Source of the DNA: a virus
Reading direction: 5' to 3' (one strand)
Virus record (IMG/VR): IMGVR_UViG_3300021962_000709
Coordinates: 1-22,385 of that record
Length of the DNA stretch: 22,385 bases
In this document: positions 6,638 to 20,930 of the stretch, one piece after another
How the letters are laid out: the number at the start of each line of letters is the position of its first letter
Position numbering within the stretch: position 1 is the stretch's first letter
The notes under the pieces: model-generated
Seen by the model: only the letters and a program-made list of their open reading frames with translations
Database searches by the model: none
What the model was told of the DNA's origin: nothing
Program-made: the position numbers and the translations under genes

Positions 6638-9600
6638 TTACGGTACAGGATTAAAAAGATCAGGATCAAATATATCATCGTAAATACATGTATCAGTTCC
6701 TAAAGCTTCTTTATTATGAACCAGTATTCCGTTTGCATAGTACGTATAATGTTCTTGTAATTTAAAGTTATACACTTTTTCATAAGCTCTATTACTATCT
6801 AGCTCTATATTACTAATTTCTACCTGTACTCCTTCTTGTGTTAGTAATATATCTCCTTTTTCAAGTTTAGAAACTTCAAGTTTATGATCTTTTTCAGTTG
6901 CAGAAGGTGAGTATGAACTCCACCCTTTACTTACTTCCCAGAATGGATGTTCTGTCGTAGCTTCTATAACTGTTTCATTACTTAACGTATACTTAACAAT
7001 ATCTTTCTTAGTTGGAGAAGTAATTGCTAATACTTCGCTAATAAGTTCTTCATCTGTTATTTCATTATAGGATAGTACTTTATCTCCTACTTTTATTGTA
7101 TCAATACGTACTGTTGACCTATCGGCAAGAGTAACTAAAGTATCTCCTGTGAAACAGCATAGATCTAATCCATCAAAATTATCTGGATCTGGAATAATAG
7201 GGGGTCTTAGTCGAATAGATGGTGTACAGTCGTTACTTTCTACAGCAGTTATTTGTATGAAGAAAGTTTCCGAGTATATTCCGTTTGAGTTAGGGTCAAC
7301 TTGTGGGTTAGCAGCTAAAAACTGATCCGAATATCTTATTCTAAATAATGCTACATTTCCTCCTATACTATATGGGTGGGAGAAAATTTGATTGCCGGTA
7401 GGTCCGTAGTACCATTCCCATTGGTATATTGGAATACCGTTAAACGGTCCTGCTAAGAATGTACCAGAGTTTGATGTAGAAAATGCACCTGGATTTATTA
7501 TGTTAGCGGGACGTACAAGTTGATCTACTACTGTACCTAATCCTCCTTCAACTGGTTCATATACTCTTATTCTGTACACTTCATTATCTGGATCTATTCC
7601 TGTAAAGAATCTTGCTAATCCGTAATTATACTCATTTGGTGTTCCAAAAATAAGTATATTATCTGTGCCTAAATACCCATTTGTAGTCCATCTACCTATT
7701 CCTCTTGTTACAATTTCGTTTACATATAGTGAAGATGTTACTACACTACATAATCCTGCTACAATTGGATAAGTAAATGTACATGTTAATGGTATTTGAG
7801 TATCTCTTACCGTTAGTGTATATGTGTCGTTTTGAGTACCGCCAAAGTATACACCTGTTGCTCCTGCAAGTAGTCCGTTGTATACCGATGTTGGTCCTGT
7901 ATTGTTTATTATGTTTAGAGTTACATTAGAGGAAGGGTTTTGAGACCCTGTCACAAACCATGATGTAACGTTATAAGTATCCGTTTCTTTAACACTTGAT
8001 CTAAAAAATCCTGATTGATCAATATCACATACTGCAACTTGTACATTAATTGATGAAGTACATATACTAGCAGTTACTCCTGCATTTGAAGCGGTTAATG
8101 AATGGGTAGAGTAGTTTGCATAATTATTTGTATTAAAAGGAAATGTATAACTTCCTGTAGGAATATTACTACTTGTTATCTGATATTGCATAGATACTTG
8201 TGATAATCCTGTAAATATTGCATTACTACTCCAGCTTCCTGAATCTAGGTATAGGGTCTTATTGCTCCCGCTATAATATATTCCTCCATTTACATTTGTA
8301 TAAGAGTTATATGGAGCTAATATACAGAGTCCTTCTGAATTTAACCACCTATTTACGTCAAAATTATTAGTAAAAAATGTTGGTGTTTTAAATAAGTTTG
8401 CATTATTAAGTTCTCCATCTGTTACTCTAATTGAACTGTTTCTCAATTCTCCGTCAAAACTAGCTTCTTGATGGGTGTGCCTGTTATCAAAACCTACCCC
8501 GAATGGTGTTTGAATACTTAAAATGTAAGAAGTGTTTAGCTCATCTCCTACTTGGCCTTGTGTTACAGTTGTATACACCCCACCATTACCTCCTACTATA
8601 AAACCAGTGTCAATTGAACCTGTATATTCTGGTCTTGATCCTGTTAGTATTACAGATTTAGCTTTATTTCTCTGAAGTAAGTATGGTTTAATAATTATAC
8701 CTGTATCTGCTGTTGATCTAGCAGGTATAAAGTCTTTTACCATTTTGAAAATAGTGTTATCAAAAAACTTAATCAGTCTAACAAAATCCTGTACATTATA
8801 GGCGTCTGATCCGCTCATAATTTGATCTGTTAGTAAACTTAAACTACTTGTTACATTTCTAGAAGGTCCTATATTGTAATAACTATCTAAGTATAAGTTT
8901 CTAGGATCTCCTAAATAGTTGTCTATATTAAAATTAGATAAAGATCCTGTTGATAGAGATTTTGAAATAATGTAATTATCTACATTATCTGTAGGAGAGA
9001 ATCCTATTTCAATTGGATGTAAGTCGTCTGTATATTTATACTCTCTTTTTACTGTAGAGGTATATTGAGATAATGTACTTCCAGTTACAATACTTCCTGT
9101 GTTATCTAAACGTACTTTATCTAAAGAACTCGTATAATACCTATAGTCTCCATAGAAAGGTCTTTCGTTTACATTTCTACCTCCGTATATTTTTATGTCT
9201 AATATATCTGAAGGAATTCCAAAGCAGTTTATCAATGCTCTTAAACCTCTTTCAGTTCCTTTTGATTTTAACAGTAAAGGAAGATTATGATACATTCTCT
9301 TATAAACCTCTCTTTGGTAGTTATCAAATGAAGAAGGTTGTATTGAAGCGTTTGAACCTGTTACTGATCCTGTTACATAGGTATTTATTACCTCACTTCC
9401 TGATTGGTAAGGTTGTCCTATAAATGATGAGAATAGATCTTCTACTGATTTATTTGAAGTATATAACTTTACTCCAAAATTTTTCAATACCTCAGCAACT
9501 AAGTCTCTAGATACTCCAAAATCTAATCTATTATCTGCATTATATTTATCCGATACTCCTTTTGCATATACCCACATATTGTCAAAATGTTGACCAATCA

Positions 9601-10894
9601 TATGGATAAAAGTTATATAACTTGCGTTAGAAGAATCATCTCTAAGATAAGAAGGTATACTGTTTATTAATATATTAGTGTTTGTAACATCGTATGTAGC
9701 AGCTACGGTTTGTTTGTTACTAAACCATATATCTCCTACTGAGGTTGTATCATTTATATACGGTTTTGTGTTATTAGTTTTTGGCCAGCTATTACTTCCT
9801 GATTCGTAATATAGAAATCTTTCGTAGTGATCAAAATTGTTTACTATACCTTTTACTAAACTTTCGTAATACGCAAGACTTCCTGTAGTTCCTAGTGAAG
9901 GTGTTGTAACTGTTTGAAAACTCGCAATTTGTGCATTATAGGATTGTATAAGATCAAACTTGTACTTAAAGTTTAATAACCTTTCTTGAGCAGATGAAAA
10001 ATGTACAAAATTATTGTAATCGTTATGATCTATACTTAGCTGTACCCCTTTACTGTTTACTAGTGAGTATAGTTCATTAGTTGTGTTAGAGATAGGTAAA
10101 CTTAGTAAAGTATCATAGTCATAATACCCCGTAGGTATTACACTCTCATCTATGAGGTCTAGGTTGAAGTTTGGAGATCTTAATTCTAAAGCAGGTACTT
10201 CTTCTGTTTCTAATATACTTGTAACTTCGTAGACTACACTATCGCTTACGAGTTCTACAACACTTACTGTAGATTTTACTGGAATATCTTCCGGTAATGG
10301 TTCGTATAGTTTTATGACTACTGAGGTATCGTCTACTTCTTGTAATGTATCAATATTTATCCCTATAAATAGATTGTTGTCTAATAAGTTTATTCTAAAC
10401 TCATTAAAGTATGACTGTGTTTCTAACCTTGTTTTTACGGCAGAGGTAAATGATAATACCTCCTCAGAAGTTAAATTAAAAGTCTTAAGTTTTAATTCTG
10501 TTCTATCTGGTGAGATTAAGTCAATAAAGAATTCAACAGTACTTCTATTTTCTGCATAAAGATCATCTACGAAGTTGTATAGTAGTTTTACATCTCCATT
10601 ACCGTACCCGTATAGTTCTACATCCGCAACCGGATCTACAGTTAGTACAGAAGCACCTTCTTTTCCTGCTGAAGCAGCATTACCTAATTCCTTATAGTTT
10701 ATATAGTTATAGTCACTTTCTATTAATTCTCCAGCAAGATTGTATATATGTAACTCTACTGAATGTTTGTTACTGTCAAATAGTTGATTTATCTGAAAGT
10801 TATTAACTAATGCAGTATCTTCTTGAGAGAATACTTCTATATTAGGTATACTTTGAGGTGTATCTTGATTGACTGTATATGTAATGTTTGTCAT
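6638..10894 (-). CDS. Large baseplate/tail structural protein with C-terminal Hint (intein-like) domain
   Basis: A 1418-aa protein. Residues 1-250 are mixed beta structure. Residues about 285-365 (NDYNNFVHFSSAQERLLNFK onward) and 520-575 (YQREVYKRMYHNLPLLLKSK, then GLRALINCFGIPSDI) are helical blocks that I recall from large structural proteins near gp6 in aquatic T4-like phages. Residues 780-1230 are beta-rich with Cys-containing Ig-like segments. Residues 1247-1394 form a Hint domain: it starts at Cys1247 (CFTGDTLVTLADRSTVRI), has TTEHPFW with the TxxH motif (His1316), and ends ILVHN (His1393-Asn1394). The next residue is Lys, and 24 residues follow. By synteny after gp25 and gp6 it could be a gp7-like wedge protein, which is an inference. 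The start overlaps the previous stop as TAATG. Confidence 0.85.
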   Translation of the reverse strand: MTNITYTVNQDTPQSIPNIEVFSQEDTALVNNFQINQLFDSNKHSVELHIYNLAGELIESDYNYINYKELGNAASAGKEGASVLTVDPVADVELYGYGNGDVKLLYNFVDDLYAENRSTVEFFIDLISPDRTELKLKTFNLTSEEVLSFTSAVKTRLETQSYFNEFRINLLDNNLFIGINIDTLQEVDDTSVVIKLYEPLPEDIPVKSTVSVVELVSDSVVYEVTSILETEEVPALELRSPNFNLDLIDESVIPTGYYDYDTLLSLPISNTTNELYSLVNSKGVQLSIDHNDYNNFVHFSSAQERLLNFKYKFDLIQSYNAQIASFQTVTTPSLGTTGSLAYYESLVKGIVNNFDHYERFLYYESGSNSWPKTNNTKPYINDTTSVGDIWFSNKQTVAATYDVTNTNILINSIPSYLRDDSSNASYITFIHMIGQHFDNMWVYAKGVSDKYNADNRLDFGVSRDLVAEVLKNFGVKLYTSNKSVEDLFSSFIGQPYQSGSEVINTYVTGSVTGSNASIQPSSFDNYQREVYKRMYHNLPLLLKSKGTERGLRALINCFGIPSDILDIKIYGGRNVNERPFYGDYRYYTSSLDKVRLDNTGSIVTGSTLSQYTSTVKREYKYTDDLHPIEIGFSPTDNVDNYIISKSLSTGSLSNFNIDNYLGDPRNLYLDSYYNIGPSRNVTSSLSLLTDQIMSGSDAYNVQDFVRLIKFFDNTIFKMVKDFIPARSTADTGIIIKPYLLQRNKAKSVILTGSRPEYTGSIDTGFIVGGNGGVYTTVTQGQVGDELNTSYILSIQTPFGVGFDNRHTHQEASFDGELRNSSIRVTDGELNNANLFKTPTFFTNNFDVNRWLNSEGLCILAPYNSYTNVNGGIYYSGSNKTLYLDSGSWSSNAIFTGLSQVSMQYQITSSNIPTGSYTFPFNTNNYANYSTHSLTASNAGVTASICTSSINVQVAVCDIDQSGFFRSSVKETDTYNVTSWFVTGSQNPSSNVTLNIINNTGPTSVYNGLLAGATGVYFGGTQNDTYTLTVRDTQIPLTCTFTYPIVAGLCSVVTSSLYVNEIVTRGIGRWTTNGYLGTDNILIFGTPNEYNYGLARFFTGIDPDNEVYRIRVYEPVEGGLGTVVDQLVRPANIINPGAFSTSNSGTFLAGPFNGIPIYQWEWYYGPTGNQIFSHPYSIGGNVALFRIRYSDQFLAANPQVDPNSNGIYSETFFIQITAVESNDCTPSIRLRPPIIPDPDNFDGLDLCCFTGDTLVTLADRSTVRIDTIKVGDKVLSYNEITDEELISEVLAITSPTKKDIVKYTLSNETVIEATTEHPFWEVSKGWSSYSPSATEKDHKLEVSKLEKGDILLTQEGVQVEISNIELDSNRAYEKVYNFKLQEHYTYYANGILVHNKEALGTDTCIYDDIFDPDLFNPVP
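6713..7156 (-). other. Hint / bacterial-intein-like (BIL-type) autoprocessing domain, residues 1247-1394
   Basis: The domain is about 148 residues long, the size of a mini-intein without a homing endonuclease. Visible motifs are the N-terminal Cys in CFTGDTLVTL (block A); VGDKVLSYNE; block B TTEHPFW with its conserved Thr and His; a KLEKGDILLT strand; and the C-terminal block VYNFKLQEHYTYYANGILVHN with His-Asn. The next residue is Lys, not Cys/Ser/Thr, so standard protein splicing is not expected. The layout is that of A-type bacterial intein-like domains, which cleave at one or both ends. The residue before Cys1247 is also Cys. Confidence 0.85.
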
Positions 10895-12347: not shown

Positions 12348-14147
12348 TTATAATGTTGTTATTCTTCCTTTAATATCTGTATCTGGGAATTTTACTTCAA
12401 AGATCATAGGATCATAAGAAGGGTATACTATGTTATTCCTAGTAGCTCCGTTTATGTCATATGCATACTGTGAATAGTTTCCTCCCGATAGGTTGTTTAC
12501 TTGTATTTTTTGAACTGTCTGTACACCTGCTATTTGATCCAGTAATGTATAAACACTGGATAGGTTAATAGGTTGGTTTATATTCCATTTTTTAATATCA
12601 AAATAATCCTTCAATAACGTATTACACTGCAGTAATACATCTCTTCCTAAGTAGTTAGGTCTTACTACTATATCATATTGTACTTCTATATTTACAACAA
12701 AAGCATCTTTAATATTAATAGCATCTGTTAATATCATATATTCTGCTAAATATTTCTTTAAGTTATTTTTTAAAGAAGTTGGGGCTGTTATAAGATTACT
12801 GTTAAGATCGTATGCTAATGTATAAAGAGATAATGATAATGGATTACTATCGACTATGCTATCTGTACTTGAATTAGGGTTGGTTAATTGATCTTGAGTT
12901 ATATAGACTTTACTAACTGTTCCGTATTTTGCTGGAAGGGATAATGCTCTAACTGTATAATCCTGTAGGGTAACTGCTCTTCCCTGTTCATTAAATGCTC
13001 TTAAAGAATTTTGTCTTAATTCTTCTACTGTATCTCCATCCTTACCTCCTGTTGCAGCTTCTGGGTTGATAAACTCTATAGAGTTGGTTGGATCTGTTAT
13101 AGGAGTTATTATGTTTGTAATAGTATTTGCTGGTACATTAGAAGATACTCCTCCTCCTACTAGATACTTAATTGTTAAGGTTGTATTTGAAGGAGCTAAA
13201 CCATAAGTCTGAGTATGTAAGAAGTTAGAAGGATCATATGCATAATCTATTCTAGAAATTCCTTGAGAGGTTCCTAATCCTACATTAGTTGGGTCTGGTG
13301 TTAGAACATCATCGTTTTGTCCTGTGATTCCTGCACCAAACTGTATTTGCAATTCTCCTGTTGAGGTAAATCTTGTTACAAATCTTCTAGGTACTTTTTG
13401 AAGAACTAAATTATATGGTACTAATCCGCTATCTGTTCCTAAATTCTGATCATCTATAAAGACTGTATCTTGCCCTAAAAACGGTACTTCATACCAGATT
13501 TTATTACTACTATCTGTAATTGATAAAATACCTACTACATTTGTATCATTAATAGTAATTGTTTTAAACTTCTCTGCAGTTGTAATTTGTTGAGTAACTG
13601 TCTTTACTTCTCCAGAATAAGCTTTTCTAGTTTTTGATAATCTAAATTGGGTAGGAGAAAGTCCTGAAAGAGTTTCTATTGTTACTTCTGTCGGGTCGTA
13701 AGAGCTTGAGAATGTAAAATCTATAGGAGTGTCTATGTAAAATCTAGATTGACCTGATGTAGCAGAGCTTAGTTGTGTACCTGCTGGTATCTGTAAAGCT
13801 TGTGACCAGTCTGGCTGGTCTGCTATAGCTGATACAAGGTGTGATACTTCTATGTCTACTTCTGAGGCTGTTGTAACTTTTGGACGGTATCCCATCATAT
13901 AAGCTAAATTGTATAAATTTACAGGGTCTTTAGCATACTGTATGTATGTTTCTTGTAACTGTAAATCCTGGTAGAAAGATAAGATATCTCCTACATAAGC
14001 AGCCATTTCTATAAACATCATACCCGGTGAGGTAGGTGTAAAGTCGTTGTAGGTGTTTGGAAAGTAGTTCTTTGCGTACTCGATTAACTCAGATCTTAAA
14101 TCTGTAAAATCTCTTCCTGTATATTTTATATCTCTATCTTGAGCCAT
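12348..14147 (-). CDS. gp6: Baseplate wedge protein gp6 (baseplate J-like family)
   Basis: A 599-aa protein, close to the size of T4 gp6 (about 660 aa). The N terminus has the family's signature: KYTGRDFTDLRSELIEYAKN, then FTPTSPGMMFIEMAAYVGDI and LSFYQDLQLQETYIQYAKDP. The middle contains the J-like core, with YLVGGGVSSNVPANTIT followed by NPEAATGGKDGDTVEELRQN, the usual region before the conserved Arg-rich helix. The C-terminal part (VEVQYDIVVRP-like strands, then SVYTLLDQIAGVQTVQKIQV) also fits. In T4, gp6 forms the ring that joins the baseplate wedges around the hub. It follows gp25 with a TAATG overlap, which gives a classic gp25-gp6 pair. Confidence 0.92.
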   Translation of the reverse strand: MAQDRDIKYTGRDFTDLRSELIEYAKNYFPNTYNDFTPTSPGMMFIEMAAYVGDILSFYQDLQLQETYIQYAKDPVNLYNLAYMMGYRPKVTTASEVDIEVSHLVSAIADQPDWSQALQIPAGTQLSSATSGQSRFYIDTPIDFTFSSSYDPTEVTIETLSGLSPTQFRLSKTRKAYSGEVKTVTQQITTAEKFKTITINDTNVVGILSITDSSNKIWYEVPFLGQDTVFIDDQNLGTDSGLVPYNLVLQKVPRRFVTRFTSTGELQIQFGAGITGQNDDVLTPDPTNVGLGTSQGISRIDYAYDPSNFLHTQTYGLAPSNTTLTIKYLVGGGVSSNVPANTITNIITPITDPTNSIEFINPEAATGGKDGDTVEELRQNSLRAFNEQGRAVTLQDYTVRALSLPAKYGTVSKVYITQDQLTNPNSSTDSIVDSNPLSLSLYTLAYDLNSNLITAPTSLKNNLKKYLAEYMILTDAINIKDAFVVNIEVQYDIVVRPNYLGRDVLLQCNTLLKDYFDIKKWNINQPINLSSVYTLLDQIAGVQTVQKIQVNNLSGGNYSQYAYDINGATRNNIVYPSYDPMIFEVKFPDTDIKGRITTL

Positions 14148-14557
14148 TACTGTTCAAAGTTTATTAACAATTCGTCTTGTATGTTTGTCATGTTTATACT
14201 ATAGTTTATATATAGTGTAAATGTATTTGTATCTGGGGATGGTTGTGCTGTAATTTTATTAAGTCTTACATTTGGAAACCATTTCGTAACACCTGCTCTT
14301 ACAGCATCCTTTACTCTCTCCGAAGTATCTGTTGTACTTTGTCCAAAGATAAACTGTCTAAGTCCTGCTCCCATTTCTGGGTTTAGGAATCTCTCTCCTT
14401 CTTCTGTTAGGAAGAAATTTACTAGATTAGCTTTTATAGCTTCCCTGGTAGTGAAAGTGGTTGTAAATACCTGATTTGAGGTAAAAGGCAATCCTACTCC
14501 TACTCCAACACTTGGTTGTAAATCTAAAGGGTTTATCTGTTGTACTTCAAATGCCAT
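14147..14557 (-). CDS. gp25: Baseplate wedge protein gp25 (GPW/gp25 family)
   Basis: A 136-aa protein, matching T4 gp25 in length (132 aa). The conserved GPW/gp25 core is visible: TFTTREAIKANLVNFFLTEE, then GERFLNPEMGAGLRQFIFGQ and ERVKDAVRAGVTKWFPNVRL, followed by a terminal beta strand pair ending DELLINFEQ. It contains the family's N-x-L...T-x-x-GER-x-x-x-P-x-x-G-x-x-L motif. In T4, gp25 binds gp6 and helps start sheath assembly at the baseplate. It overlaps by one base with both neighbours (TAATG at 14557 and at 14147), which suggests coupled translation with gp6. Confidence 0.93.
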   Translation of the reverse strand: MAFEVQQINPLDLQPSVGVGVGLPFTSNQVFTTTFTTREAIKANLVNFFLTEEGERFLNPEMGAGLRQFIFGQSTTDTSERVKDAVRAGVTKWFPNVRLNKITAQPSPDTNTFTLYINYSINMTNIQDELLINFEQ

Positions 14558-20297: not shown

Positions 20298-20930
20298 CTA
20301 ATAAATAATAGGTTCTCCAACGGTAAACAATGCTCCTACCTCGCGAATCTTATCAAAAGCCTCAAAAGGGGTAACCTTGAAAAACTCTCTAGAACCGCCC
20401 TTGTCGGAAGAAACCCTAACAGAACTAAAATGCTTATGAACGGCTTTTTCCACTCTCATAGCCGTACCCTTCTTAAGAGGTAAAGCAAATTTCGGAACCC
20501 ATTCCTCAACCGTAGCTGTAGCGTTTATCGCCGTGACTCTCCTAGGAACATCATGAATGGTCATTCCTATCTTAACCAAGGAAGTATACCCGGGATTCAC
20601 AAGAACGTAAACATACTCGATATCATCTGTAGATTTCTCTTTTATCTTAGAATTTTCTATACCGTGGAAATATCTCCAGGAATAAGTATTGGTATCTTTA
20701 TCTACTATACCTTCAGGGGCTTCTATAAGATATTTTGCCGATAAGAAAGTAAGGAGTTTCTCTGGAGATACATGTCTGTATTTAGATTGTAGTATAATGA
20801 AGTTCTCTTTCCATGTCTTTCCTACCTTAGGGTAGGCCAAAACAGATTCTGGTGAAGAATCAACAATTGTAATCTCTCCTATTAATTCAAGGGACATAGC
20901 CTCCGAAAGACTTATTTTATCTTTATACAT
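20298..20930 (-). CDS. T5orf172/MUG113-type GIY-YIG nuclease
   Basis: A 210-aa protein. The C-terminal half is a GIY-YIG variant of the T5orf172/MUG113 type: strands YVYVL (106-110) and VKIG (119-122, in GYTSLVKIGMT), catalytic Arg130 or Arg131 in HDVPRRVTAIN, metal-binding Glu161 in RVEKAVHKHF with His165, and the closing REFF motif (181-184). The N-terminal 100 residues (SLSEAMSLELIGEITIVDSS onward) match nothing I recognise and may bind DNA. Such nucleases in phages may degrade host or rival DNA or act in homing. The gene lies 15 nt after the small membrane protein gene, under the same host-type promoter. Its base composition looks more GC-rich than the structural genes, which may reflect a different origin. 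Confidence 0.8.
   Translation of the reverse strand: MYKDKISLSEAMSLELIGEITIVDSSPESVLAYPKVGKTWKENFIILQSKYRHVSPEKLLTFLSAKYLIEAPEGIVDKDTNTYSWRYFHGIENSKIKEKSTDDIEYVYVLVNPGYTSLVKIGMTIHDVPRRVTAINATATVEEWVPKFALPLKKGTAMRVEKAVHKHFSSVRVSSDKGGSREFFKVTPFEAFDKIREVGALFTVGEPIIY

Follow-up and report, generated by a model that had tools for sequence, protein, structure and literature searches.

The tail/baseplate-region protein of 1418 residues encoded in the window (the whole stretch of viral DNA analysed here, a complete record of 22,385 bases) contains a genuine and probably active Hint domain of the A-type bacterial-intein-like (BIL) kind. Based on sequence comparison and structure prediction, this domain would be a self-processing element situated before a short C-terminal tail and not simply a device for releasing that tail, a reading to which we assign a probability of about 0.5. 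Domains of this kind are known; judged from sequence, the novelty would lie in the phage tail/baseplate-region setting combined with a conserved lysine at position +1.

Identity and setting of the Hint domain

The Hint domain spans residues 1247–1394 (6713..7156, on the minus strand like all window features given below) and is the only one in the window. The sequence-only reading had described an intact Hint domain of about 148 residues, lacking a homing endonuclease and followed by Lys1395 and an acidic tail of 24 residues, and each element was found where it had been placed: the domain measures exactly 148 aa and no endonuclease insert is present within it. The block A nucleophile, at intein position 1, is Cys1247 (7154..7156), which is invariant in all Hint-bearing homologs and is preceded at position -1 by Cys1246 (7157..7159), a Cys found at the same place in Hint-free homologs. 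Block B is TTEH at residues 1313–1316 (6947..6958), the block-F His is intact as His1382, and block G ends in His1393-Asn1394 (6713..6718). Lys1395 at position +1 (6710..6712) is conserved in all Hint-bearing homologs and absent from Hint-free ones. It begins the C-terminal tail (6641..6712; pI 4.05), which contains Cys1403 and resembles the tail of Hint-free relatives.

Residues 1247–1394 matched the PT-HINT family PF07591 above the Pfam cut-off (43 bits, E 5.4e-11), and a phmmer search of the PDB with the Hint sequence identified a BIL domain (E 3.8e-12). The AlphaFold check proposed with the original reading returned a confident Hint fold (pLDDT mostly >90), with both the linker before the domain and the tail after it predicted to be disordered. 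By Foldseek, the best solved structural matches were two BIL domains, Tetrahymena BUBL1 BIL2 and the Clostridium thermocellum BIL (target-normalised TM-scores of 0.92 and 0.88, respectively). As a side observation, AXH (the ataxin-1/HBP1 module) ranked first or close to first among the Pfam matches of the window Hint and many related Hints, with up to 67 bits in the bacterial protein L445, and the Hint profile matched ataxin-1 AXH structures with E 3e-10. AXH and Hint may share an ancestor, a question on which the literature search returned no paper.

The Hint fold, Cys at position 1, the block-B His and the C-terminal His-Asn place the domain in the Hint superfamily. The A-type BILs of C. thermocellum (2lwy) and Tetrahymena (BUBL1 BIL2, 6tmm/6y75) have the same fold, size, Cys1 and His-Asn end, likewise lack an endonuclease and tolerate a non-nucleophilic +1 residue; as in A-type BILs generally, the window Hint occupies a variable region of a protein that is not conserved. 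It differs from them in its phage tail/baseplate-region setting and in its conserved +1 Lys. Although it scores above the PT-HINT cut-off, only 24 residues and no toxin domain follow it, whereas classic Flavobacteriaceae PT-HINTs end in YFV...VLVHN followed by T/G/D/Q and 90–122 residues. Class 1 phage inteins share the fold and blocks A, B, F and G, but carry Cys, Ser or Thr at the position of Lys1395 and, when full-length, a homing endonuclease.

The host protein (6638..10894) was assigned by its open reading frame, homology and gene order. It shares 49.7% identity over residues 1–1051 with gp109 of Flavobacterium phage vB_FspM_immuto (Immutovirus; NC_055915), an alignment covering 85% of its Hint-free part, and gp109 itself has no Hint domain. 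Gene order in Immutovirus matches that of the window, where the gene follows a gp25-like wedge gene (14147..14557; phrog_261, E 3.6e-16) and a gp6-like wedge gene (12348..14147; phrog_6, E 2.7e-27). A more distant copy in a Microcystis phage also lies downstream of a tail lysozyme gene. The earlier description as a tail/baseplate protein thus agrees with synteny, by which the protein is assigned to the baseplate region of a contractile-tailed phage, and the Immutovirus relative suggests a Bacteroidota host. Its position after gp25/gp6-like genes would also fit T4 gp7, to which a comparison with the single T4 sequence gave no signal. A PDB profile search with the host protein returned no match, and AlphaFold gave no reliable model of residues 1–870 (pLDDT 48). 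Conservation is concentrated in approximately the first 770 residues, and the Hint domain sits within the variable C-terminal part.

Several neighbouring genes were also recorded. Two with homing-endonuclease-like or endonuclease matches (748-1185 and 20298-20930; phrog_447/7363/314 and phrog_681) flank the tail module, and in Immutovirus a protein annotated with a T5ord172 domain is encoded ahead of the tail genes. The 522-aa product of 1204-2772 has YadA-head repeats, matches phrog_25468 strongly and is probably a fibre or knob. The literature search for an Immutovirus genome paper or virion proteomics found passing mentions only.

Gain, loss and selection

Among 39 viral-contig loci with homologs, the Hint domain was present in L002, L003/L005, L006, L007 and L008, in addition to L004 and the window. 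No cultured relative bearing the Hint turned up in the collections searched. The core tree requires two changes in Hint presence, with starred support, and these are most simply read as a single gain at the base of an eight-row clade with a nested, clean loss in L011/L012; L004 sits on a long branch and its placement is less sure. The core of L011 is 71% identical to that of the window. In L011 and L012, the Cys before the Hint site runs straight into DNGQYAYSPEECITED (SPQECITED in L012), and the tail after this Cys resembles the post-Hint tail of L003 and the window (shuffle test of L011 against L003, p 0.002; against the window, p 0.026). The Hint-free outgroup L015 has a comparable tail. 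Since the N-side Cys and a Cys-containing tail both occur in Hint-free L011, L012 and L015, the Hint domain sits between two old parts, which argues against the tail as a mere by-product of cleavage. The sequence-only reading had instead seen a duplicated acidic motif in the flanks (DPDNFD before, DPDLFN after), into which the domain would have been inserted. This likeness spans six residues, and the N-flanks of L004 and L006 lack it; as an insertion scar it was rejected on a shuffle p of 0.25.

The catalytic Cys, His and His-Asn were invariant down to 61% identity, and the block-B His was invariant across 56 diverse Hints collected by a search that did not select for it. Pairwise dN/dS of the window Hint was 0.15 against L003, 0.08 against L004 and 0.24 against L006, indicating at the sequence level that the domain is under purifying selection. 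An inert, degenerate insert kept for a structural role on the periphery of the tail would account for the loss in L011/L012, which marks the domain as dispensable, and for the loss of the block-B Thr in L006-L008, but we consider it improbable given the strength of this selection and the invariant catalytic residues. The tail is less conserved than the core (dN/dS ~0.4-0.5 over 14-24 codons) and most of it is lost in L004; together with the missing block-B Thr, these observations count against self-excision.

In two pairs the Hint had diverged less than the core at synonymous sites (dS for window-L003, 0.25 vs 0.69; for window-L004, 0.92 vs 1.7), which suggests exchange as a module. This, the patchy distribution and the free-standing homing-endonuclease-like genes within the window would suit a mobile mini-intein in its last stages, which has lost its endonuclease and splices merely to be harmless. 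Such an origin is nevertheless quite improbable in view of Lys instead of Cys/Ser/Thr at +1, an insertion site outside the conserved part of the host protein, and a closest structure that is a BIL and not an intein. The genome scan found no close bacterial relatives of the window Hint.

A second Hint domain was found by pattern scan in 2723-aa proteins (L397, L398 and L400) whose core is shared with the window protein (~31% over residues 46-574). Judged via its relative L086, it was not sister to the window Hint in a Hint tree whose deep forks are weakly supported. It also has Lys at +1 and separates two conserved stretches that run on without a break in Hint-free L417, L424 and L426; the region following it comprises 504 aa and is conserved. 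The +1 Lys is kept in L409, L416, L086, L420 and L421 while the residues after it differ, and no Lys occurs at the junction in Hint-free L417 and L424 (L426 is more distant, with an unsure alignment there). The alignments indicate that the distant homologs gained their Hint separately, interrupting a continuous domain.

Both acquisitions bear on whether the domain only cleaves, Asn cyclisation and/or thioester hydrolysis trimming the C-terminus and freeing the tail or Hint plus tail, which could time baseplate maturation. Lys is not a canonical nucleophile and cleavage dominates in BILs (PMC4031507), but the tail predates the Hint and is conserved in part, and simple C-terminal loss is unlikely for the 2723-aa homologs, with their split domain and conserved post-Hint region. 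Cleavage as the sole activity therefore appears unlikely on balance, though it deserves serious weight.

Lysine at position +1

An initial survey of the +1 residue used a pattern in which Lys was fixed, which cannot reveal enrichment of Lys; two further surveys, both small, were therefore added. The initial pattern returned ~48 clusters of Hints ending in HN-K from viral and cellular contigs, including lambda gpJ-like and DUF4815 proteins. Many HN-K Hints in other proteins lie at the extreme C-terminus, one to five residues following the Asn, and 13 viral ones end exactly at Lys. In viral proteins ending in ...HNK (L053, L062, L074, L101, L114, L128, L133 and others), Asn cyclisation could free a single lysine only. 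Tandem Hints with a two-residue joint (HNKFCF, HNKACF, HNRACF or HNRYCF) were also observed on viral contigs L060, L069, L093, L105 and L090.

In the gpJ-like tail tip proteins (L064, 1049-4012, minus strand, phrog_31 match with E 2e-106; also L096, L127 and L156), the Hint-HN-K is N-terminal, in the order ~22-27 residues, Hint, KGGGK and gpJ body. C-terminal cleavage alone would leave a near-native gpJ start, in favour of a purely cleaving domain. The +1 Lys may be native here, given that the start of gpJ is Lys/Gly-rich, so this family lends weak support to Lys as part of the module.

In the viral survey, where Lys was not required, the +1 residue was C in 72 cases, S in 19, T in 12, K in 8, R in 2, and A and L in one each (n=115). 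Lys was found in three of the five host families without a nucleophile at +1 (p 0.003, against an assumed background of 7%). The Pfam-based survey covered 300 Flavobacteriaceae genomes, the family to which Flavobacterium sp. LMO8 belongs. Toxin-type PT-HINTs had a variable +1 residue and a long downstream domain, and ANG-type Hints had K or R at +1 with a tail of 2-5 residues, so that their HN-K or HN-R end lies ≤5 residues from the C-terminus. In bacteria, the proteins L445 (which weakly matches an RHS repeat), L447, L435 and L436 terminate in a Hint of the HN-K or HN-R type, and no toxin domain follows.

The occurrence of Lys at +1 in unrelated phage and bacterial Hints, and its absence from Hint-free relatives, suggest that it belongs to the Hint module. 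The window Hint is one of a scattered, little-noticed group of phage-tail Hints in which Lys replaces the splicing residue, and this Lys may take part in catalysis. More speculatively, HN-K Hints could form a distinct and widespread autoprocessing class, in which the +1 Lys replaces the nucleophile and itself reacts, through alpha-amine ligation or by forming an epsilon-amine isopeptide, thereby shaping or joining a virion protein. Such a class would have been acquired repeatedly by phage tail proteins (at least twice in the window family, and also in DUF4815 and lambda gpJ-like proteins), as well as by RHS-type proteins of bacteria.

The thioester and Lys might also couple the protein to another molecule, by cross-linking or hedgehog-like C-terminal capping. 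The predominance of Lys and Arg among non-nucleophilic +1 residues and the Hints that stop exactly at Lys are in keeping with this. However, the Hint is followed by only 24 residues, predicted to be disordered, and by no sterol-recognition-like extension of the kind found in the Hedgehog Hog domain, and no putative partner or acceptor was identified; coupling of this type is rather improbable.

Proposed self-processing and its meaning

The established chemistry of BIL domains allows a thioester to form, the Asn to cyclise and the flanks then to be ligated by aminolysis; cleavage is often the dominant outcome (PMC4031507). The sequence-only reading had considered splicing unlikely owing to the Lys at +1. 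That residue is present and is not a canonical nucleophile, but the conclusion was overstated: A-type BILs can splice without a +1 nucleophile (PMC4031507), and Lys recurs in so many such Hints that it is no defect. Accounts of the ligation step differ between reviews, A-type BILs being described elsewhere as unable to ligate their flanks (PMC7765530); in a Magnetospirillum BIL, splicing occurred only once the +1 Tyr had been changed to Cys (PMC4031507).

We infer the reactivity of the window Hint, the order of steps and the product as follows. As a self-processing element, the domain would fold and then most likely form a thioester at Cys1247. Asn1394 would cyclise, whereby the Hint would cut itself out, and the freed amino group of Lys1395 would attack the thioester by aminolysis, as has been proposed for A-type BILs. 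The mature protein would comprise ~1270 aa and still carry the old tail with its Cys; simple cleavage would accompany this outcome or compete with it. Masses calculated for the full protein are 158.2 kDa for the precursor, 138.7 for the N-part, 16.8 for the Hint, 2.7 for the tail, 141.4 for the spliced form and 155.5 for the C-cleaved form.

Excision followed by religation, at least in part, is plausible, at somewhat less than even odds, and excision or cleavage without religation is a credible outcome as well. The ancestral tail and the split domain of the distant homologs make religation somewhat likelier than cleavage alone. An inert insert is a doubtful outcome, and thioester transfer to another virion protein a very doubtful one. 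Ligation cannot explain the whole HN-K class, since many of its Hints are C-terminal, where rejoining exteins makes little sense; the class may have an activity other than ligation.

To our knowledge, splicing or ligation chemistry with Lys at +1 has not been described for inteins. Among the open-access papers searched, none was found to describe a Hint domain in a baseplate protein. The window protein, which exists in natural Hint-plus and Hint-minus versions, would allow post-translational self-processing to be tested in a phage tail. If the +1 Lys is catalytic, it would represent a splicing or ligation chemistry and a possible tool for protein engineering.
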